NCBI RefSeq assembly: GCF_003325355.1
Contig: NZ_CP030850.1
Coordinates: 2,666,001-2,730,000 of the forward strand
Length of the DNA: 64,000 bases
Direction: 5' to 3'
Source of the DNA: Runella rosea
GTDB lineage: Bacteria > Bacteroidota > Bacteroidia > Cytophagales > Spirosomataceae
The position numbers and the translations under genes are program-made. Below the pieces are notes generated by a model. It ran no database searches. It had not been told where the DNA came from and saw only the letters and a program-made list of their open reading frames with translations. Positions within the stretch are counted from its first letter, which is position 1, and each line of letters opens with the position of its first letter. This document shows, in pieces, positions 13,451-37,074 of this stretch.

Positions 13451-13801
13451 TTAACCTATTGACAGTCCTTGTTGGGGTTGAAGCAGGATTTGCATTGCTT
13501 CCACAAAACGCTCAAATTCAGAGACTTTTTGGATGGCAGTTGCGCTCCCACTCGGTGTAAGGGTGTAGTACTTGCGCAACCGCCCATCTACTTCCTCTGA
13601 TTCGGTTAGCAAAAAACCTTCCTGCTCCAATTTGTGTAATACCGGATACAATGCTCCGAAGGTCAGAGTGATTTCGCCGTTGGTTCGCTCCTTTACTGAC
13701 TGGGTAATTTCGTAGCCGTACATACGTCCCTGCTCGGCCAACAATTTTAACACAATTGTCTTGAGAGTTCCCCGTAAAAATTCGTTACTTGTTGCTTCCA
13801 T
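13451..13801 (-). CDS. PadR family transcriptional regulator
   Basis: A 116-residue winged-helix regulator of the PadR family. The family signatures are clear: 'LRGTLKTIVLKLLAEQGRMYGYEI' (strings at residues 9-32), 'LTFGALYPVLHKLEQEGFL' (46-64) and 'GRLRKYYTLTPSG' (72-84). Small PadRs of this form in Bacteroidota usually control a neighbouring membrane-protein gene. The stub at 12839-13363 lies directly downstream, and mbnP is divergent across a 207-base gap that contains an AT-rich inverted repeat. Confidence 0.92.
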   Translation of the reverse strand: MEATSNEFLRGTLKTIVLKLLAEQGRMYGYEITQSVKERTNGEITLTFGALYPVLHKLEQEGFLLTESEEVDGRLRKYYTLTPSGSATAIQKVSEFERFVEAMQILLQPQQGLSIG

Positions 13802-14008: not shown

Positions 14009-14815
14009 ATGAAAAACATACTGCTGTACACAACAGCCGTCTCTTTGCTGATTCTGATTCAATCCTGCAACTCAAACCCCGACCCCACCGAGCGCAATTC
14101 ACTCACCTTGACGTTCGACCATCGTGTTGGTGACAAAGCACTTACTTTAGGAACCGACACCTATCAAAACACATCAGGAGAAGACTTTTCGGTGACAACT
14201 TTCAATTATTTCATCAGCAATATTTCTCTCAAAAACGCAGACGGCTCTACTTTTGTCTATCCGCAGGATTCGAGTTATTTTTTGGTCAGAGAAACATTTC
14301 CTGCCTCCAAACAAATTACCTTGAAGCGTATCCCCGCTGGTGATTATACCGCCCTTACCTTCACGATTGGCGTGGACAGCCTCCGAAACACGATGGACCT
14401 CAGCCGTCGAAAAGGAGTCCTTGACCCAGGTGATGTCTCGCACGAGGGAGATGGCATGTATTGGTCATGGAATTCGGGCTATATTTTCCTAAAAATAGAA
14501 GGAAATTCTTCTAAAATTACCCCAGACCCAGCTGGCAATCAGAAATTTAGATACCACATTGGAGGGTATGGAGGCTACAACGCCAAAACGTTCAACAACC
14601 TCCGAACCGTGACTTTGCCGCTCGGAAACATTCCCGCCAAAGTCGGCCCTAACCAACAGCCCGTTATTACCATCGTTACAGACGTGTCGAAGTTATGGGA
14701 CGGAGTACAGAAAATCAGTTTGGCTACGACCCCTACGGTTATGTTTTCGGACTATTCTACCACCGTTGCCAATAATTACGCAGCTATGTTTCGGGTTTCG
14801 GCGGTCAAAGAATAA
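14009..14815 (+). CDS. mbnP: MbnP-like copper-binding lipoprotein
   Basis: This resembles MbnP, the periplasmic copper-binding partner of the diheme enzyme MbnH. In the methanotroph system, MbnH oxidises a conserved Trp of MbnP to kynurenine, which helps form the Cu(I) site. Here the conserved block is 'SHEGDGMYWSWNSGYIFLKIEG' (residues 144-165) with Trp152 and Trp154, and a His pair is supplied by His145 and 'RYHIGGYGG' further on. The N-terminus has a hydrophobic segment ending IQSC, with Cys20 as lipobox. It lies 12 bases upstream of the MbnH-like gene, the expected order, and is separate from any methanobactin peptide genes. Identity rests on motif and pairing. Confidence 0.85.
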   Translation: MKNILLYTTAVSLLILIQSCNSNPDPTERNSLTLTFDHRVGDKALTLGTDTYQNTSGEDFSVTTFNYFISNISLKNADGSTFVYPQDSSYFLVRETFPASKQITLKRIPAGDYTALTFTIGVDSLRNTMDLSRRKGVLDPGDVSHEGDGMYWSWNSGYIFLKIEGNSSKITPDPAGNQKFRYHIGGYGGYNAKTFNNLRTVTLPLGNIPAKVGPNQQPVITIVTDVSKLWDGVQKISLATTPTVMFSDYSTTVANNYAAMFRVSAVKE

Positions 14816-14827
14816 AGGAGATTATCA

Positions 14828-15910
14828 ATGAAAAAAACATTCATCATCGGGTTATCGTTGGGTCTCTGGGGATGGGCCGCGTGTAATCGTACCAACGAAA
14901 CTCCCACCCCAACCGACCCCGACCCATCCACAGATAAAATAGAGGTTCCTCAACCAAGTTATTTTCCCAACAAAGTGTACGATTTATCTTCCAATCCGGT
15001 AACATCCGCTGGATTTCAACTGGGAAAATCCTTGTTCTATGACGGAATTTTGTCGCGCAATGGCACCATCGCTTGCGGCACCTGCCACCAACAAGCCGCC
15101 GCTTTTACCCACCACGGGCACGACCTCAGCCACGGCATCGACGACCGAATCGGGGCCCGCAATGCACCTGCCATTCAGAATTTGGCTTGGACCAAAGCGT
15201 TTTTTTGGGACGGTGGTGTGCCACATTTAGATTTATTTCCAATCGCACCCATCGAAAATCCGGTTGAAATGGACGAGAAATTACCCAACGTCCTACAAAA
15301 ACTGCGCGAAAGCAAAAACCCCAATTACCCCGAACTTTTTAAAAAAGCATTTGGTAGCCCCGACATCACCACCGAGCGATTCAGCAAAGCACTCTCACAG
15401 TTTATGCTGCTTATGGTTTCCAACAATTCCCGCTATGATATCTACTTACGCGGCACCACCAACGCCCTTACAACCACTGAAAAAGAAGGACTTACAATCT
15501 TTAAACAGAAATGTAGCAGTTGCCATTCGGGAGAACTATTTACGGATCAAAGTTACCGCAACAACGGGTTGAGCACCGACCGAAACCCCGACCAAGGGCG
15601 TTTTAACGTTACCCAAAACCCCGACGACCGATTTAAATTCAAAGTTCCTAGCCTGCGAAATTTAGGCTATACTGCCCCCTACATGCACGACGGGCGATTT
15701 ACGTCATTGGAGCAAGTATTAGAACATTATTCAAAAAATATAAAACAAACACCCACCCTCGATGGTTTACTTCAACAGGATGGAAAATTGGGCATAGCAC
15801 TTACGGAAGAGGAGAAGCAAAAAGTCATTGCCTTTCTGAAAACACTATCCGACGAACAGTTTGTTCAGGATACTCGTTTTTCAGACCCTGGCTTCGGACA
15901 TTCTTTCTAG
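14828..15910 (+). CDS. mbnH: MbnH-like (MauG/cytochrome c peroxidase family) diheme enzyme
   Basis: A 360-residue periplasmic diheme c-type cytochrome of the MauG/CcpA superfamily. Two heme-attachment motifs are present, CGTCH at 83-87 and CSSCH at 229-233, with typical spacing. Further conserved parts are 'ARNAPAIQNLAW', 'PIENPVEMDEKL', 'KVPSLRNLGYTAPYMHDGRF' and 'ALTEEEKQKVIAFLKTLSDE'. The N-terminus is a signal sequence ending in a possible lipoprotein Cys19. Immediately downstream of mbnP, it is best explained as the enzyme that modifies MbnP. A plain cytochrome c peroxidase is the alternative, but the mbnP pairing argues against it. Confidence 0.88.
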   Translation: MKKTFIIGLSLGLWGWAACNRTNETPTPTDPDPSTDKIEVPQPSYFPNKVYDLSSNPVTSAGFQLGKSLFYDGILSRNGTIACGTCHQQAAAFTHHGHDLSHGIDDRIGARNAPAIQNLAWTKAFFWDGGVPHLDLFPIAPIENPVEMDEKLPNVLQKLRESKNPNYPELFKKAFGSPDITTERFSKALSQFMLLMVSNNSRYDIYLRGTTNALTTTEKEGLTIFKQKCSSCHSGELFTDQSYRNNGLSTDRNPDQGRFNVTQNPDDRFKFKVPSLRNLGYTAPYMHDGRFTSLEQVLEHYSKNIKQTPTLDGLLQQDGKLGIALTEEEKQKVIAFLKTLSDEQFVQDTRFSDPGFGHSF

Positions 15911-16021
15911 TCACCAATTATTGAGCGAATTACAGATTATCAATAATCTACAATTATTCACTTATCCCCCCAAAAACAGTTATTTTTAAGTTATATTTTT
16001 TGAATTAAACAGGGAGTAAAA

Positions 16022-16546
16022 ATGTATTCAACGTCTGCTTTTGCCAACATGATACGAAAGTCTTACGCCAAATCGGAGGGTGATTCTCCGCTGTTTTGCT
16101 GGGACATTGTTCAGCTGTACCGGGCAACGTCAACCAATACCCAACACGATGTTTCTACGTTGAAAACCCTCATGGCAACGCAACAATGGTCGTTGGACCT
16201 CAACTTTGATGATTTGTTACAAAATGAATTCACCATCGTTGTGACCGATACGCGTCAAACAATTCAATGGGTAAGCTCGTCGTTCCAGCAAATGACTGGG
16301 TATAGCAAGCACGAAGCCATTGGCCAAAAACCCAGTTTTTTGCAGGGTGCAAATACCAACCCACAGCAACTTGCGTTTTTGAGAGAGCAACTTACGGCTG
16401 GTAACAAAACCCAGACCGAAGTGGTGAACTATCGTAAAAACGGTGAGGAATACTTGTGTTGGATTGAGGCCTTGCCAGTCATGAATCGCAAAGGCGAATT
16501 AGTCAACTATTTGGCCATCGAAAAAGAAGTAAAACAAGTTGGATAA
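16022..16546 (+). CDS. PAS/LOV-like domain protein lacking the photoactive cysteine
   Basis: A 174-residue cytoplasmic protein whose residues 68-172 form one PAS domain of the LOV subtype: 'VTDTRQTIQWVSSSFQQMTGY', then 'GQKPSFLQG' (101-109), 'NYRKNGEEYLCWIEALPV' and 'NYLAIEKEV'. In photoactive LOV domains the third motif reads GxNCRFLQ; here Cys is Pro104 and Asn is Lys103, so no flavin-cysteinyl photoadduct can form. It could still bind flavin or another ligand. There is no output domain. It overlaps the next (CWC) gene by eight bases, suggesting translational coupling. Confidence 0.8.
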   Translation: MYSTSAFANMIRKSYAKSEGDSPLFCWDIVQLYRATSTNTQHDVSTLKTLMATQQWSLDLNFDDLLQNEFTIVVTDTRQTIQWVSSSFQQMTGYSKHEAIGQKPSFLQGANTNPQQLAFLREQLTAGNKTQTEVVNYRKNGEEYLCWIEALPVMNRKGELVNYLAIEKEVKQVG

Positions 16547-16742
16547 CCTTTCAACCCAACCCCTTCACTCCTGCCCCCGTTGCCACCAGTCGTTTGAATG
16601 TACGCCCTATTCAGCGACGGGCTGCGTATGTTTTCAGTTTAAGATTCCCCCTCAGGTTGCGGATTTTATAAAAGCGAATTTCGACAGTTGCCTATGTCCA
16701 GCGTGCCTTACGGAATTGATTGAAGCGGCCACCCCGAATTAA
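16539..16742 (+). CDS. Cysteine-rich CWC family protein
   Basis: A 67-residue protein with eight cysteines in the CWC pattern: C12-x2-C15, C21, C29-x-C31, C51-x-C53-x2-C56 ('CPRCHQSFEC', 'CVCFQF', 'CLCPACL'). It is probably a small metal-binding (zinc or other soft metal) protein; the family has no proven role. The TTG start at 16539 overlaps the stop of the PAS gene by eight bases, and no ATG is available before the first cysteines. It lies between the MbnP/MbnH pair and a copper-monooxygenase-like gene, which makes a metal-related role attractive but unproven. Confidence 0.8.
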   Translation: MDNLSTQPLHSCPRCHQSFECTPYSATGCVCFQFKIPPQVADFIKANFDSCLCPACLTELIEAATPN

Positions 16743-16831
16743 ACCATTTCGTAGAAGAATTGTCTCATTAGCAACATTCTGGGAAGTAAAAATAACGTAT
16801 CTTCGACCCGTAAAAATAGCCCTGCATCTGC

Positions 16832-18202
16832 ATGAAGACCTTCAACGCTTACTATGCCACATTATTGACTGCCATCACAACGGCGCTATGGGTAGGTTCC
16901 TGCCAAACCAAAGAGGCCGATGTGCTTGAAGAAGGTTCTTTTAAACTCATTCAGACGCAGATTTTTGACAAATCTTGCGCCACTTCGGGCTGCCACGCTT
17001 CAGAGCAAGACGCCTCCTTTCGTCAACACGGGCTGGTGTTAACCGCCGATGTTTCTTATACCAATCTGATTAATAAATTTGCAAAAAACACCGCTGCCAA
17101 CGCTGATTCTATGCGTTTGGTCACGCCTGGCAACGTCGCCAAGAGCTTTCTTTACACCAAAATCAATTGCAGCGCCGCGTCGCTTTTGGCAGGAAAACAG
17201 TACGGAAACCCCATGCCTCTGGGAGCCAACGGGCTTTCGGTTGGTGAAATAGAATTTATTCGTAAATGGATTGAATCAGGAGCGGCGCGTTCGGGTGGCT
17301 CAGTCGATGCCTCTTTGATTACCAATTCAGTCCCGTTGTGCGGCTCTAGCTTCGGAAGTACCTTTACGGCCCTTGCTCCGCCCAAGCCAAGCGAAGGCCT
17401 ACAATTACATTTGGAACCATTTGAAGTAGCCAATACGTACGAGCGTGAGATTTTTGTGCGTAAACCCGTCAATAATGCGTCCGAACTATACATCAATCGC
17501 GTTCAAACACGCATGAGACCTGGCAGCCATCATTTTATTCTATATAACTTTAAGAATACCAACAACTTACCCACTGAGGGGCAAGTTCGTGACCTCCGCA
17601 ATTCCGATGGAACCAACAATCTGCTTACTTTTTTAAGTATGCAAAATCACGTTTTCTGGGCAGGTACGCAAACACAGGAGCATGATTACCAATTTCCCGA
17701 GGGCGTAGCACTCCGTATTCCCGCCAATTATTCGTTTGACTTTAACTCTCATTATGTCAATAAAACAGCGGGAAAAATCCCTGGTGAAGTATATGTAAAT
17801 CTCTATAAACTGGAGAAGGAAAAAGTGAAAATTGTGGCCAATTCGCTCAATTTAGGCCACGAAAGCTTTAGCCTTCCTGCTGGACAGCGCACAGTAGTGA
17901 CCAAGAGCTTTATCTTTTCAAAACCCACCAAAGTGCTGATGCTAACTTCTCATACGCACAAATTGGGCGAGAAATACGTCATCAAAATTGTGGGTGGTCC
18001 CCGCAACGGAGAGATTGTCTACGAAAGTACCGACTGGGAACACCCCCTTATCAAAACATTTGTGCAACCACTCGAATTTAACAAAGGAGAGGGCCTGATG
18101 TCGGAAGTCACCTTCAATAACACCACCACCAAAACGGTCAAATTCGGTCTTACCAGCGAAGACGAAATGGACATTATCTTCGGATATTATTACGAACAGT
18201 AA
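16832..18202 (+). CDS. Secreted heme-domain/PHM-like copper type II monooxygenase fold protein
   Basis: The protein (456 residues) starts with a signal sequence and possible lipobox Cys24 (GSC). Residues 35-155 resemble a c-type cytochrome-like domain with a CX4CH heme motif (C49, C54, H55, 'CATSGCH') and a MetPro region ('GNPMPLG'). Residues ~185-455 match the fold of peptidylglycine alpha-hydroxylating/dopamine monooxygenases. All six copper ligands have counterparts: His233-His234 ('GSHHFILY') and His307 ('NSHYVN') for the first copper, His374 and His376 ('SHTHKLG') and Met446 ('EDEMDIIF') for the second. The substrate is unknown. It follows the mbnP-mbnH-PAS-CWC genes on the same strand; a weak promoter-like TATCTTCG at 16798-16805 precedes it. 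Confidence 0.82.
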   Translation: MKTFNAYYATLLTAITTALWVGSCQTKEADVLEEGSFKLIQTQIFDKSCATSGCHASEQDASFRQHGLVLTADVSYTNLINKFAKNTAANADSMRLVTPGNVAKSFLYTKINCSAASLLAGKQYGNPMPLGANGLSVGEIEFIRKWIESGAARSGGSVDASLITNSVPLCGSSFGSTFTALAPPKPSEGLQLHLEPFEVANTYEREIFVRKPVNNASELYINRVQTRMRPGSHHFILYNFKNTNNLPTEGQVRDLRNSDGTNNLLTFLSMQNHVFWAGTQTQEHDYQFPEGVALRIPANYSFDFNSHYVNKTAGKIPGEVYVNLYKLEKEKVKIVANSLNLGHESFSLPAGQRTVVTKSFIFSKPTKVLMLTSHTHKLGEKYVIKIVGGPRNGEIVYESTDWEHPLIKTFVQPLEFNKGEGLMSEVTFNNTTTKTVKFGLTSEDEMDIIFGYYYEQ

Positions 18203-30907: not shown

Positions 30908-31235
30908 CACCGTAACGCTTCTCAAAGATACCCCGGGTACAATCTCTCTGCTGCGCGGAAGTGTAACGATAGGCTACGATGACATCGTCCGGCTGGAAGG
31001 AGAATCCAACTATACCCGCTTTGTACTGGCCAACGGCCGTACTCTGCTTACCTCCCGAAACATCGGTTTTTATGAGTCACTACTTCCCGAAAACTTTCTG
31101 CGAGTACACAAACGGTGCATCCTCAATCGAGCTTATGTGACCGAAAAATGCAAAGGATACGTGCGGATGAGTGATGGGGCGGAAGTGGAGGTAGCGCGGA
31201 GAAAGAGGCGTATAGTTAAAACAAGAAATGCCTGA
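30879..31235 (+). CDS. LytTR-domain DNA-binding protein without receiver
   Basis: A 118-residue protein whose residues ~22-114 form a LytTR domain ('IVRLEGESNYTRFVLANGRTLL', 'FLRVHKRCILNRAYV', 'VARRKRRIVKTR'). The N-terminal 20 residues are short and carry no receiver domain, so activity may be controlled by abundance or partner rather than phosphorylation. It ends 28 bases before the start of the giant secreted protein gene (31264) and may control it and itself; that is inference from position. Confidence 0.85.
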   Translation: MNLLPTSPGSTVTLLKDTPGTISLLRGSVTIGYDDIVRLEGESNYTRFVLANGRTLLTSRNIGFYESLLPENFLRVHKRCILNRAYVTEKCKGYVRMSDGAEVEVARRKRRIVKTRNA

Positions 31236-31263
31236 TAAAATATTAAATAGACCCTGTACAATC

Positions 31264-34200
31264 ATGAAAAGCATCATAGCCCTACTCCTGTCTTTACTGT
31301 CAATCAGCTCTTTGGCCCAAAGCCCTACCGAGCCTACTGTTTATATACCTGTGGTGGTGCATGTGATCGAATCCGGGCAACCAACTCCTTCAAATGAAGA
31401 TATACTTGCTAAAATTGACCTTTTAAATAAAGTCTTTGATGGTTCTGCTCCTTTTTTGTCAAATCCTTTAAATATTGGCATACAGTTTAGGTTAGCAAAA
31501 TTATCACCGCAATGTGCTCCTACCAATGGAGTTAAAAGACATGATTATACAACAAAAAGTCTATTATATTTATACTATGGTGTTCAACATGAAACCAAAA
31601 AAGGATTGCCGGAAATAGTGTTAAAAAAAGAAACACAATGGGATGTGAATCAATATATGAACATATGGATAGTTGATAAAATAGATAGTTTAAATACAGG
31701 TGCGTTTACTTATTTACCCGAAGAAGCTGGTAGTAGAGATGGAATAGTGATTACCAGTAAAGATTTTTCAGAAAGTAATTCCCCCATTTTAATTAATCAA
31801 GTGGGTAGATTTTTTAATCTTCTAAATGTATGGGAAAATAAAAGCCCTTATTCCAACTGTGGGGATGATGAAGTTGATGATACAGATCCTGTAGAGTTTT
31901 ATAGTGGTCAGCCAAGAACAGGTATTAATCCATGTACTAATACAAGTTTTAAAGATGCAACAGAGAAAAATTTTATGTCTTTTAACGATGTGAGAACACT
32001 ATTTACAATGGAGCAAAAAAAACGAATGATAAAATCGTTAAAACTTAACAACCGTAAATCATTGGTTAATTCGATTACTGATGAAATTAGTTCCTGTTTG
32101 TTTAATAGTTCTAACACTGCGGATGTTTTTAAACATAATGATTTACCTGTAAATTCTTTCAAAACTTTGGGTGTTGGAAAGGGGGGGTATATTTATGCTG
32201 GAACAGCGAATCAAGGTCTTTATAAATTCAATGGAAAAGTTTGGTCAAAATTATCAATCTTATCAAACAATAGTGGAAGTAATAACATAAATGATATTCA
32301 AACTGATAAAAATGGAGGAATTTGGATTGCACAATATGGTCATTCGTTCACACAAGCTATCACAGGGGGCATAAACTATCTACCAGACTCAACAGAAATT
32401 GGTCACATTTATTATACACCTTCTACTTATGGATTACCTACTCGAAACTGTCGAGGTTTATTTATTGATACAAGTTCAACTCAAACAACTCATAGAATTT
32501 GGTCTGCTCATTCAGGTCAAACAGGGACAACAGAAGCTGCTGGTGCTATAGGTTTGGGTGTTTTTTCAGCTGCCCCGGCTTTCAATATAATAACAGGAGG
32601 AATTGACCAAACATTGCCAAATATTGGTGTGCAATCGATTGGTGGAGATGATACAGAAGTATGGGCTTTTGCACCTAACAATTTTGGCAATAATGAGATA
32701 TTAGTTTATGACGCAAAAACTACGGCTTATAAAAAAAAATATGGGATTGTTAATATTGGGCACTCATTTCCAGCTAATTTTTTGGTTAAGTCTATTCATT
32801 TTGATGTATTTGCCAAGAAAAATTTATTAATTGATAGGCGATGGTTGGGTGTATCTAATGGTGGATTATTGATATTTCAAAAAAATACAAACCAAACGGA
32901 AGGACTATGGTATTACTTTAATCAAGAAACATTTCCAACAAAGTTTCCATCTGGTGCAATTATCAATAACAATAGCATTACAAGTGATGACTCTGGATAT
33001 GTATATATGGGAACAAATCAAGGGTTAGTAGTTTTTACAGGTGGTGAGATTGCTGATTCATCTAATTATCAGCGGTTTACGATGGCGCATGGTTTACCAT
33101 CGAATAACATTCTTGATATTGTTTCTTCTCCTTACTATAATAGAATGGTAATAGCAACTGACCAAGGTATAGTTTTTTGGGATAAAAGCAGAATTAGAAA
33201 AAATCCTGAGAAAATCAATATTACTGATATTTCAGAGGATTTTAATCAATCTCATTACATTGTTCCTAAAGAGTCTATTGTTCATCATTATTTATCTATT
33301 AAGAATAATCTTACAGGTAAACCCAAAAAAGATTGTTATATTCTATATACTTTGAGTAACCAGCCTCCTTTGACGTTTTTTGCATCAGAGTTAAGTGATG
33401 ATAAGGGACTAAGCGATTTGAAGATTCCAATTGGAGGTTCTAATCCTTATTCCCCTAATGATGATTTAATAACATCAGGGGAGTCAAATGTAACAGTTAA
33501 TTTTTTTGACATTGTTGACATAAATAATGACAATATTGAAGTTGAGACAAACTATTTTAAAAATACATCTTTTAAAATCTCAGTAATTGATAAAGCGAAA
33601 CCCATATCGAAAGAAATGGGAATGGGGGCAAGTTTTGAAGCTGGTGGAGGAATAATTGGTGGTGGAGAATTCGAGGTTGTAAATTGGAAGTTAAAAGGCT
33701 CTCTTTTTTCAGTAAACGGTGCCTACATTGCGAAACCTTCTATCACAGTAAATGAAGATGAAGACAATCCTCATATTTGGCACACAAGACTCAGATACCC
33801 TAACGGGATTAAACTTGAAGGAAATCTGGGACCGAAAGTTGAAGGTCAATTAGGTAAAGTTAAAGTTGAAGGTGGTGCGGAATTAGAGTTAACTGCCTCT
33901 GGATCTTATGTTGAAGAGTATGAATATGCCTTGAATCTACAAAATCAAGCTGACAGATTTTTTCTTGGAAATGCTCTATTTGGAATATCATTAACACCAT
34001 ATTCTCTGTTGATGCAAGCCTATTTAAGAAACCTTAATCTTTTTTTTCAAGAGGCTGATGCTATCAAAACTGGGATAAATCTAAATATTGAGAACGCAAT
34101 TGAAGGTGGGTTAACATTTGTTCATGAAACTGATTTTAAAGAATGGCTGGATCCTAAAATAGGAATAGAGTATGGCCCAAAATTGTTTTCTACTGATATT

Positions 34201-37074
34201 GAAATAAGTTCAGAAAATTTAAATAATGATGTTATTAGTCATGACTTAGTAGCTTCCGCAAGTATTGCCAAAAATGTTGGAACTTTGGTGGGTATTTTAC
34301 CTAATGAGGCTATAGAGCCTGGACTTTGGTCTTACTTTTTAAATAAAATAGATACATCCCCAAAGACTTTCACAGTAGCTTTAAATAGAAAATCAAATAG
34401 AAATACTGAAAGCTTAATTAGCACATCCGCATCATTTAGCGACTCAAAAGATGTCATAATTCAAAACGAAAAATATACTCTGACATACAAAAATAAATTT
34501 AATTACAGGAATGATGCAGTGGAAAGTATTGGTATTATTCCTGTAAACTTTATTTCTGGATTTTTTAATAATCAAAATGTATGGACTTCACCTTTTACTA
34601 TGGCGGCCTCAAGTGCAGCAGGTTTTGGCGGCCCTGTATCGCAAATTAAGACTTATCATAAAAGTATTTTTGTTAAACCACAAGGGACATTTGGAACTAA
34701 AGCAATTGAAACTAACATAGAAAAAGAGTACAAAAAATCAAATGAGACAATTGCACTAAGTTTTGCTTTAAAAAGTATATTAGGTGTTGATTTTGAATTA
34801 AGCTATAGCGACTGGAATAGCTATACTCATAAACATAAAGACTTTGTATATTCTTCTGAATATCATAAAATGCTGCCTACAGTAGATATGCCTGAAATTG
34901 AAACTAATTCTCCATTAGCTTCATCCGTTTTCCAATCAAAAGCAAATGGAAACATAGAGTTACCTGATCAAAATCCAATCGAAGGTTTTATTCAAAATTT
35001 AATAACTGAATTAGAAACATTACCTACTTCAATTATCGAAAATGCTCTTTCTTTCATAAAGCAATTTTCTCAATTTGTTGGTACAAGTAATATTTCTTTC
35101 TCAAACACCCAAAATGGTACAACTCAACGTTTAGGTTTAGATGCAAAACCTGTCAATTCTAAAGGCGTAACTACCACTTCCGCCCCAAGTATATTTACAT
35201 TCAATGTACTAGGGGGAAATGCCGCTTTCGATACGGGCAACGAAGTACTATTCAAGTACTACTACCCCGAAAACCAACTTGAGGCAAAAATCGGAACGAA
35301 CACATATCGTATAGTCACAGACGTATTTTTCTTGAATGCCCGCAATGGTACTACTAACCTGGTTTCGGCTCCCAACGGCAACTTCACCCTCACTACACAG
35401 TTTAGTTCTTATGAGTTGGAATTAGCAGGGTTGCCAACTACTTTAATCCCCAAAGTACTCTTTCAAGCGAATGGAACCAATACTTGGGAAGTCGTAGGCA
35501 ATGCCAACGAAACCATCAATTTTAATCGTTTAGGGGTATTTGCCATAGGAGTGGATCTTCAAGAAGATTTTATTCCTCCAACCATTTCGGTTACACCACC
35601 TGTTTCATTTGTAGATGGGCAAAATTTTCAATTTACTTTGACTGATAATTTATCAGGTATAGATTGGAGTAAAACGTATTTTATCTGCAACGGTACAGTA
35701 ATGCCATATCAAAGAGTAGGAACAAGTAGTACCATCAATATCCCCATTGCCAGCCTTCATGTAAGTGGCACGCCACTTCCTGAGACATTTTCGATTCAAA
35801 TTCGTACCATTGATTTGTCTTACAATCAAAAATCATTCTCTCAAACTTATCCATGTGCTAAGTCCATCAAGCTATTAAGTGTTTTGGGCAGTGAATCTGT
35901 TCTCCCCAACAAACAGCAAGCCCTCGAAACCATAGAAGCACAAGGATTTGCGGCTACACGTCCACCCTTGGAATTGAAGGCTGGCAAATCTATTTTACTC
36001 AAACCAGGCTTTGAGGTACTGCCCCAAAACAGCGGTTATTTCAAAGCCGAAATCGGTGGGTGCAATACTTCCGGTGCCCCCGCCCAACCTGCCAATTTTA
36101 CGGCAAGTACCGCTACCGTTTGCAAAGGGCAAGCAGGAGTGGTATATGCTGTACCTACTGTAAGTGGTGTAACCTACAACTGGTCTTACTCAGGTACAGG
36201 CGCTACCATCAACGGTACCGGCAATAGCATTACGATAAACTTTGCCGCCAATGCCACTGCCGGGACACTTTCCGTAACCGCTGCCAATGGCGCGGGTACA
36301 AGCCCTGCCCTCACCCTTGCTATCACCGCAAACACCCCACCTGCTCCGCCCACTGCCCCCAACATCAATAGTGCAACGGGTGCAACAGCCTCAGTTTTGG
36401 CCTCGGGTTGCACAACTTACAAATGGTACGACCAAGCCACCAACGGAACATTGCTGTTTACGGGTAATCCGTTTATTTCGCCTATTTTAAATGCTAATGC
36501 GACCTATCATGTAGCGTGCGCTGATGCACCCTGTGCAGAAACGACTCGTACAGCAGTCACCGTTAGCGTAGGAGCAGTACCTGCGCAACCCGCCGCTATT
36601 TCCGGCACCAATGTGGCTTGTCAAGGTCGATCAGGACTCAATTATTCTGTCCCTGCGGTATCGGGAGCTACCTCTTACACATGGACTTATTCGGGTACAG
36701 GTGCTGCCATTACGGGCAATACACGGCAGGTGGTAATTGATTATGCCTACGCTGCCACTTCCGGTAACCTAAATGTGGTAGCTAATAACGCATTTGGTTC
36801 AAGTGCGCCAAGAACCATGGCTATCAGCATTAGTCCAGCCCCCCCTGCCCCAACGGCAACAGGAGTAACAATATCTTCCGGGAATTCGGCCAACCTTACC
36901 GCTACCGGGTGCTCAATTTATAAATGGTACCCCCAAGCATCAGGAGGGACAGCATTTACCGGGCAAAACTTTACAACTCCAACCTTAAATAGTACTACGA
37001 CCTATTATGTAGCTTGTAATCCCGGCACTTCCTGTGAATCGTCCCGTGTACCAGTCGTGGTAACAGTCCAATAA
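31264..37074 (+). CDS. Giant secreted protein with an inactivated pappalysin (M43) domain, propeller-like repeats and Ig-like modules
   Basis: A 1936-residue protein; ATG 31264 starts the signal peptide (MKSIIALLLSLLSISSLAQ). Residues ~25-275 match M43 cytophagalysin/pappalysin: 'YIPVVVHVIESG', 'YMNIWIVDKID', 'SRDGIVI', 'CGDDEVDDTDP', 'NFMSFNDVRTLFTMEQKKRM'. The zinc site is lost: expected HEVGH...H reads N178-Q179-V-G-R182...N188. Residues ~280-640 contain propeller-like repeats ('DKNGGIWIAQYG', 'DDSGYVYMGTNQGLVVF'). A long unrecognised beta-rich middle (~650-1310) follows. A 3-coathanger-type module lies at ~1540-1601 ('GFEVLPQNSGYFKAEIGGCN'), then alternating PKD-like and Ig-like repeats to the end. 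The first ~3.9 kb is strikingly AT-rich, the rest is not. Confidence 0.85.
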   Translation: MKSIIALLLSLLSISSLAQSPTEPTVYIPVVVHVIESGQPTPSNEDILAKIDLLNKVFDGSAPFLSNPLNIGIQFRLAKLSPQCAPTNGVKRHDYTTKSLLYLYYGVQHETKKGLPEIVLKKETQWDVNQYMNIWIVDKIDSLNTGAFTYLPEEAGSRDGIVITSKDFSESNSPILINQVGRFFNLLNVWENKSPYSNCGDDEVDDTDPVEFYSGQPRTGINPCTNTSFKDATEKNFMSFNDVRTLFTMEQKKRMIKSLKLNNRKSLVNSITDEISSCLFNSSNTADVFKHNDLPVNSFKTLGVGKGGYIYAGTANQGLYKFNGKVWSKLSILSNNSGSNNINDIQTDKNGGIWIAQYGHSFTQAITGGINYLPDSTEIGHIYYTPSTYGLPTRNCRGLFIDTSSTQTTHRIWSAHSGQTGTTEAAGAIGLGVFSAAPAFNIITGGIDQTLPNIGVQSIGGDDTEVWAFAPNNFGNNEILVYDAKTTAYKKKYGIVNIGHSFPANFLVKSIHFDVFAKKNLLIDRRWLGVSNGGLLIFQKNTNQTEGLWYYFNQETFPTKFPSGAIINNNSITSDDSGYVYMGTNQGLVVFTGGEIADSSNYQRFTMAHGLPSNNILDIVSSPYYNRMVIATDQGIVFWDKSRIRKNPEKINITDISEDFNQSHYIVPKESIVHHYLSIKNNLTGKPKKDCYILYTLSNQPPLTFFASELSDDKGLSDLKIPIGGSNPYSPNDDLITSGESNVTVNFFDIVDINNDNIEVETNYFKNTSFKISVIDKAKPISKEMGMGASFEAGGGIIGGGEFEVVNWKLKGSLFSVNGAYIAKPSITVNEDEDNPHIWHTRLRYPNGIKLEGNLGPKVEGQLGKVKVEGGAELELTASGSYVEEYEYALNLQNQADRFFLGNALFGISLTPYSLLMQAYLRNLNLFFQEADAIKTGINLNIENAIEGGLTFVHETDFKEWLDPKIGIEYGPKLFSTDIEISSENLNNDVISHDLVASASIAKNVGTLVGILPNEAIEPGLWSYFLNKIDTSPKTFTVALNRKSNRNTESLISTSASFSDSKDVIIQNEKYTLTYKNKFNYRNDAVESIGIIPVNFISGFFNNQNVWTSPFTMAASSAAGFGGPVSQIKTYHKSIFVKPQGTFGTKAIETNIEKEYKKSNETIALSFALKSILGVDFELSYSDWNSYTHKHKDFVYSSEYHKMLPTVDMPEIETNSPLASSVFQSKANGNIELPDQNPIEGFIQNLITELETLPTSIIENALSFIKQFSQFVGTSNISFSNTQNGTTQRLGLDAKPVNSKGVTTTSAPSIFTFNVLGGNAAFDTGNEVLFKYYYPENQLEAKIGTNTYRIVTDVFFLNARNGTTNLVSAPNGNFTLTTQFSSYELELAGLPTTLIPKVLFQANGTNTWEVVGNANETINFNRLGVFAIGVDLQEDFIPPTISVTPPVSFVDGQNFQFTLTDNLSGIDWSKTYFICNGTVMPYQRVGTSSTINIPIASLHVSGTPLPETFSIQIRTIDLSYNQKSFSQTYPCAKSIKLLSVLGSESVLPNKQQALETIEAQGFAATRPPLELKAGKSILLKPGFEVLPQNSGYFKAEIGGCNTSGAPAQPANFTASTATVCKGQAGVVYAVPTVSGVTYNWSYSGTGATINGTGNSITINFAANATAGTLSVTAANGAGTSPALTLAITANTPPAPPTAPNINSATGATASVLASGCTTYKWYDQATNGTLLFTGNPFISPILNANATYHVACADAPCAETTRTAVTVSVGAVPAQPAAISGTNVACQGRSGLNYSVPAVSGATSYTWTYSGTGAAITGNTRQVVIDYAYAATSGNLNVVANNAFGSSAPRTMAISISPAPPAPTATGVTISSGNSANLTATGCSIYKWYPQASGGTAFTGQNFTTPTLNSTTTYYVACNPGTSCESSRVPVVVTVQ

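Follow-up and report, generated by a model that had tools for sequence, protein, structure and literature searches.

Three modules of different history in a copper- and heme-associated gene run of Runella rosea

The window analyzed here is a stretch of 64,000 nucleotides from Runella rosea (contig NZ_CP030850.1, positions 2,666,001 to 2,730,000 of the forward strand), whose genome comprises 7.16 Mb in 7 contigs. It carries a run of five genes (genes 1 to 5; Table 1) that specify, in order, an MbnP-like protein, an MbnH-like enzyme of the MauG family, a short PAS protein, a cysteine-rich CWC protein, and a protein in which a cytochrome c-type region is fused to a PHM-type copper monooxygenase domain. 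The run consists of three modules of different history: MbnP-MbnH, PAS-CWC and heme-PHM. The locus is probably a lineage-specific assembly of these modules in a copper neighborhood, and not one obligate pathway. All five open reading frames (ORFs) were confirmed on the strand and at the positions given in a preliminary description of the sequence. The copper and heme character which that description assigned to the parts was borne out by motifs and by Pfam matches of genes 1 to 5, respectively, to MbnP (E = 3.8e-57), CCP_MauG (3.2e-53), PAS_9 (8e-16), Cys_rich_CWC (6.5e-12) and Cu2_monoox_C (1.3e-07). What is new is modest: the association of PAS-CWC with MbnPH and, within the phylum, a cytochrome c-PHM family with graded heme motifs.

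Gene order and co-occurrence

The PHM gene was found in all 13 Runella genomes and MbnP in 12. MbnP lies ~2 kb from PHM in five of these 12 (the window, G031, G050, G134 and G095, the last with a degenerate CWC gene). The distance is ~10 kb in G119, ~16 kb in G075 and ~1 Mb in G063, and the two genes are on separate contigs of the draft genomes G086, G103, G111 and G129. In 10 of the 13 genomes, the CWC gene precedes PHM by no more than 0.7 kb, so that CWC-PHM looks to be the older neighborhood within Runella. Among 200 genomes of the family to which Runella belongs, PHM was found in 142 and MbnP in 146: both are present in 96 genomes, PHM alone in 46, MbnP alone in 50, and neither in eight. 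As independence predicts ~104 genomes with both, positive co-occurrence of MbnP and PHM was rejected. Listed PHM and MbnP genes share a contig in 33 genomes; they are within 17 kb in eight (seven Runella and G157) and at least 216 kb apart in the other 25. In the neighborhoods examined, PHM genes outside Runella are mostly embedded among housekeeping genes, which were named by eye as cysD/cysH/cysN with kup, or ung, apaG, an O-methyltransferase and a DEAD-box helicase.

The preliminary description had viewed the five genes as one copper-loading and copper-dependent oxidation pathway and had proposed conservation of gene order as a check. The order is found only in the five Runella genomes mentioned above, and the modules are apart in most genomes. 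A single conserved operon was therefore rejected, and a conserved five-gene pathway was not supported. A pathway in which kynurenine-bearing MbnP passes copper to the PHM-like enzyme under PAS-CWC regulation would fit the ~2 kb spacing in five Runella genomes, the 10–16 kb spacing in two more, and the second placement in G157 described below, where a Runella-type PHM gene is beside MbnP with SCO1 in the same run. Nevertheless, it is unlikely. Almost one-third of the genomes with a PHM gene (46 of 142) are without an MbnP match, 25 of the 33 same-contig genomes have the two genes far apart with PHM mostly in housekeeping surroundings, and at none of 16 loci examined beyond the family did the 1.5 kb flanks of PHM contain a match to MbnP, MbnH, PAS or CWC. 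The specific proposal that MbnP donates surface copper to a heme-driven PHM-type lipoprotein outside methanotrophs, with PAS-CWC in control and cytochrome c replacing ascorbate, is improbable.

Alternatively, chance may have placed three independent transcription units together in one Runella subclade, an explanation that is possible but doubtful. The modules are separated by gaps of 111 and 89 bases, they may possess promoters of their own, for which the indications are weak, and they are separated in most genomes. However, chance sits poorly with the occurrence of PAS-CWC close to MbnP in genera g5 and g28 as well, with the second placement of PHM beside MbnP in G157, and with the position of CWC just upstream of PHM in most Runella genomes. 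In the preferred reading, a lineage-specific assembly, the three modules would share a demand for copper or heme and, sometimes, a neighborhood.

No other single observation points as strongly to a functional tie between MbnP and PHM as that in the G157 genome, from another genus, but it is one case. The PHM protein of G157 groups with Runella (100/99). Of the two MbnP proteins in this genome, one groups with that of G089, which belongs to the same genus as G157 (100/99); the other is without a placement and is outside the Runella group. The run (L107 6270-15186) reads MbnP-MbnH-c13-c56-SCO1-NhaA-PHM-small ORF-MbnP-MbnH, in which NhaA was named by eye, and one MbnP gene is 320 bases from PHM with another ~4.7 kb away. 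Judged from these groupings, a Runella-type PHM gene was apparently transferred horizontally into an MbnPH/SCO1 cluster of G157. The c13 proteins (for example, L134 10906-11817) are ~300 amino acids long, possess a CD(I/L)CGC motif, and follow MbnH in several relatives; the one member scanned had no Pfam match.

A probable cytochrome c-PHM family with graded heme motifs

No exception to the heme-binding motif of gene 5 (C49-X4-C54-H55) or to the residues H233, H234, H307, H374, H376 and M446 occurs among 54 aligned rows, in which some genomes are duplicated. All 30 rows of a thinned alignment retain Cys24, Met128, the residues of the CX4CH motif and each of the six copper ligands. The ligand positions were assigned by reference to those of PHM, which we take to follow the order HH-H-HxH-M. 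Thus, the CX4CH motif and six PHM-type ligands noted in the preliminary description, as well as the WxW motif of MbnP, are present in the sequence and conserved in alignments. An AlphaFold model built from the thinned alignment (mean pLDDT 79.2, pTM 0.60) found its best matches in the PDB in human dopamine beta-hydroxylase (DBH; E = 2.4e-13) and rat PHM (E = 4.7e-13). With a TM-score of 0.68 by PHM length, the model has the PHM fold. The protein shares this fold and the ordered set of six ligands with PHM and DBH, but differs from them by an additional N-terminal heme-binding region and a lipobox-like cysteine, and is 16–19% identical to them in structural alignments. The N-terminal Cu2_monooxygen model, presumably PF01082, had no match in gene 5, for which PF03712 alone was reported at E values up to 1.

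The same protein was sought in 395 genomes of the phylum and was detected at E ≤1e-40 in 22, of which 18 are outside the family. Loci were analyzed for 16 of these 18, three of the 16 being from one genus. The heme motif occupies the same place in all 16 and takes the form CX2CH in seven, CX3CH in three and CX4CH in six. Both cysteines and the histidine of the motif are retained throughout, as are Met128 and all six copper ligands. This graded series at one place is the best evidence for the heme assignment. Variation of the heme motif with retention of the copper ligands supports a heme-fed copper monooxygenase as the most likely interpretation. Gene 5 would specify a membrane-anchored lipoprotein in which a c-type heme region is fused to a two-copper monooxygenase of the PHM/DBH type. 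In view of the domain make-up and invariant residues, the heme most likely supplies electrons to copper in place of ascorbate.

Several observations weigh against this assignment. The heme region is poorly modeled, with pLDDT <50 at residues 50-57, and the model therefore provides no heme-to-copper geometry. No Pfam cytochrome model matches the region, and neither phmmer nor a profile hmmsearch against PDB sequences yielded a match to gene 5. Moreover, in seven of the 16 relatives outside the family, the lipobox position Cys24 has another residue or lies beyond the covered sequence. If the assignment is correct, cytochrome c-PHM would be a bacterial copper monooxygenase with a built-in electron donor, and electron delivery in the PHM/DBH class could be tested within one chain. 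For the rules of heme attachment, the gradation from CX2CH through CX3CH to CX4CH at a single position in one family would also be a natural test. No description of a cytochrome c-PHM fusion was found in the titles and abstract openings that searches of open-access literature listed.

The closest named relatives of the PHM-like gene are in Runella species. The PHM protein at locus L111 of G124, a genome labelled as the same genus, is only 57% identical and groups with G007 (100/98), and the genome has no MbnP match. The R. rosea genome itself also specifies a PHM-type paralogue with a CXXCH motif (L138 1381-2670) that is 22% identical over residues 133-435; it matches Cu2_monoox_C above the cut-off and a cytochrome model below it. 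Elsewhere in the same genome, the CX4CH domain recurs as a separate protein of 172 amino acids (L137 1495-2013), and matches to the N-terminal part only were noted in other Runella as well. At G187:C12:128389-129644, the PHM gene seems to be broken up into two frames that overlap.

The PAS-CWC pair

The PAS and CWC genes overlap by eight bases (16539-16546), as stated in the preliminary description, when the mechanically assigned TTG start of the CWC gene is used. The eight cysteines of CWC are invariant in 13 of 13 aligned rows. All 13 Runella genomes specify a short PAS protein, either at this locus (five genomes, 80-100% identical) or elsewhere (eight genomes, 37-41% identity). As listed for the 200 genomes of the family, the short PAS protein was typed in 93, CWC in 87 and both in 71. 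Starts of the two genes are no more than 2 kb apart on the same strand in 35 of these 71 genomes, with PAS ahead of CWC in 27 and the reverse in eight. In 20 genomes, the pair and a typed MbnP gene are on the same contig: the pair is within 15 kb of MbnP in 11 (four Runella, six of genus g5 and one of genus g28) and at least 126 kb away in nine. MbnP is on another contig than the pair in 14 more genomes. On the 15 contigs longer than 1 Mb, the pair is near MbnP in seven, compared to 0.11 expected from random placement with kinship ignored.

Thus, PAS-CWC is a conserved gene pair that is commoner near MbnP in three genera than random placement predicts. It keeps company with MbnPH on evidence that lies beyond the window, and the link between them that the preliminary description had drawn from one genome extends to others. 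Pfam scans of examples placed SCO1, MerC or PepSY_TM in these regions of other genomes; TonB receptors, a CobW-type GTPase, ZIP and CDF transporters, and an RND efflux pump were named by eye from translations. The pair is accordingly a candidate partner of MbnPH outside methanotrophs. The short PAS protein, presumably cytosolic, would most likely be a sensor related to metals or redox, and the eight-cysteine CWC protein its metal-binding partner. Two points count against giving this much weight: the occurrences near MbnP are clumped by kinship, six of the seven non-Runella cases being from genus g5, and the sensor and partner roles are a guess. No description of the pair was found in the titles and abstract openings that the literature searches listed. 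In excerpts of one source, “cysteine-rich CWC” appears in tables near cobalamin genes (PMC7755780).

The best PDB relatives of the PAS protein are LOV domains, with which it shares sequence similarity in the PAS domain and an LQG motif. Pro104 aligns with the cysteine of the phototropin LOV sequence GRNCRFLQ, which we take to be the photoactive residue. The term Cys-less LOV in the preliminary description was apt in this respect. However, proline occupies the position in all 10 rows of an alignment of diverse short PAS proteins, and a loss of the cysteine specific to this locus was rejected; the position also sets these proteins apart from LOV photoreceptors. Glu167 is invariant in the same 10 rows and aligns with a phototropin glutamine that is, we presume, the flavin-sensing one. 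The kinship with LOV domains would suit a flavin-based light or redox sensor that controls copper genes. With proline in place of the photoactive cysteine, glutamate in place of the flavin-sensing glutamine, and no effector domain, such a sensor is hard to credit.

The MbnP-MbnH pair

Gene 1 matched the Pfam MbnP model with 193.7 bits against a cut-off of 27. The NCBIfam MbnP model (TIGR04052) was its sole match in that collection, at 48.4 bits, which is under the curated cut-off of 140. Gene 1 is therefore MbnP by Pfam, but not the equivalog of NCBI. The MbnH model (TIGR04039) was the best of 15 NCBIfam models for gene 2, at 227.6 bits, and also fell under its cut-off (362.85). The WxW motif is retained in 37 of 37 MbnP proteins and His183 in 36 of 37, three genomes being counted twice. 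Both CXXCH motifs are present in 42 of 42 MbnH proteins, again with some genomes counted twice; the R. rosea protein has two heme c sites, is of the MauG type, and adjoins MbnP. With MbnP in 146 of the 200 genomes, the MbnPH pair in the window is ordinary. Kynurenine-dependent copper binding by the MbnP family was reportedly described by Manesis et al. in 2021, and Kenney et al. are said to have studied MbnH in 2019.

The arrangement resembles MbnP-MbnH, CorA-CorB and MopE-SACCP, in which, as far as excerpts of the sources describe them, a WxW partner is likewise adjacent to a di-heme enzyme of the MauG family (PMC3912023; PMC3621798). In the excerpted text, a tryptophan beside copper is oxidized to kynurenine in CorA and MopE, and the oxidation is proposed to be carried out by co-transcribed MauG-like cytochromes (PMC3912023). 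By analogy with these homologues, MbnH would oxidize a tryptophan of surface-located MbnP to kynurenine, thereby generating a copper site. Compared to the methanobactin-type pair, the kynurenine site here is a prediction, both NCBIfam scores are under the cut-offs, and MbnB is lacking. The preliminary description had stated that methanobactin genes are absent. This held for MbnB, as PF05114 (MbnB_TglH_ChrH) had no match in the R. rosea genome in a search that covered MbnB alone among methanobactin genes; the same model matched in two of 14 control genomes. The occurrence of MbnPH outside methanotrophs also holds and is already in print: excerpts of PMC3621798 describe pairs conserved far beyond methanobactin producers. 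In G103 (L119 3220-17314), multiple genes for MbnP and MbnH form a run, and one MbnP is very divergent.

Locus layout and neighboring genes

Table 1. Features of the gene run and its flank (positions within the window)
Feature	Coordinates	Strand	Basis
MbnP-like protein (gene 1); N-terminal Cys20, lipobox-like; WxW = Trp152/Trp154; His183	14009..14815	+	Pfam, alignment
MbnH-like di-heme MauG-family enzyme (gene 2); two CXXCH (83-87, 229-233)	14828..15910	+	Pfam, NCBIfam, alignment
Short PAS protein (gene 3), LOV-like; Pro104 where photoactive Cys expected	16022..16546	+	Pfam, PDB alignment
Cys-rich CWC protein (gene 4), 8 Cys; TTG start	16539..16742	+	ORF list, Pfam, alignment
Lipoprotein-like (Cys24) fusion (gene 5): cytochrome c-type region (C49-C54-H55, Met128) + PHM-type copper monooxygenase domain	16832..18202	+	
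-7-like element TATCTTCG, possible PHM-gene promoter (weak)	16798..16805	+	
PadR regulator, divergent neighbor	13451..13801	-	Pfam

Upstream of the run on the opposite strand, Pfam identified a TonB-C protein together with the PadR regulator, and downstream a GFO/IDH oxidoreductase and a GH43 enzyme. The PadR gene adjoins MbnP or CWC-PHM in other Runella, depending on the species. The element TATCTTCG resembles what we take to be the -7 element of Bacteroidota and is a weak candidate for a promoter specific to the PHM gene. It is identical in three of five aligned Runella sequences and altered in the other two. Similar motifs are upstream of PHM at nine of 31 loci, whereas shuffling predicts 3.8; their distances from the gene are scattered, and the lead was dropped.

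Operons that contain genes for a TonB receptor, PepSY_TM, Sco-type chaperones and MbnPH-like proteins, and that are led by bp2923 homologues, are described in excerpts of PMC9426467. In genomes related to R. rosea, MbnPH likewise has SCO1, PepSY_TM and TonB receptors nearby, the last of these named by eye. In contrast, this set is not among the scanned neighbors of the run in the window, which has PAS-CWC and heme-PHM instead. In many relatives, the MbnP, SCO1 or TonB receptor genes are preceded by a gene of cluster c7 (L134 8482-8886, L161 11400-11786 and others) for a small membrane-type protein with a conserved cysteine pattern of about LC..R..P.LHC.G.CYLAK. The c7 proteins are perhaps analogues of the bp2923-type copper leader genes, as far as excerpts of PMC9426467 portray the latter. 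The one c7 member scanned had no Pfam match over the cut-off, and in the window no c7 gene was observed ahead of MbnP. A dip in GC content at 32-36 kb of the window was considered and found to be unrelated to the copper run; it is occupied by a large gene (31228-37074) for a 1948-amino-acid protein with an M43 peptidase domain and Ig/PKD repeats.

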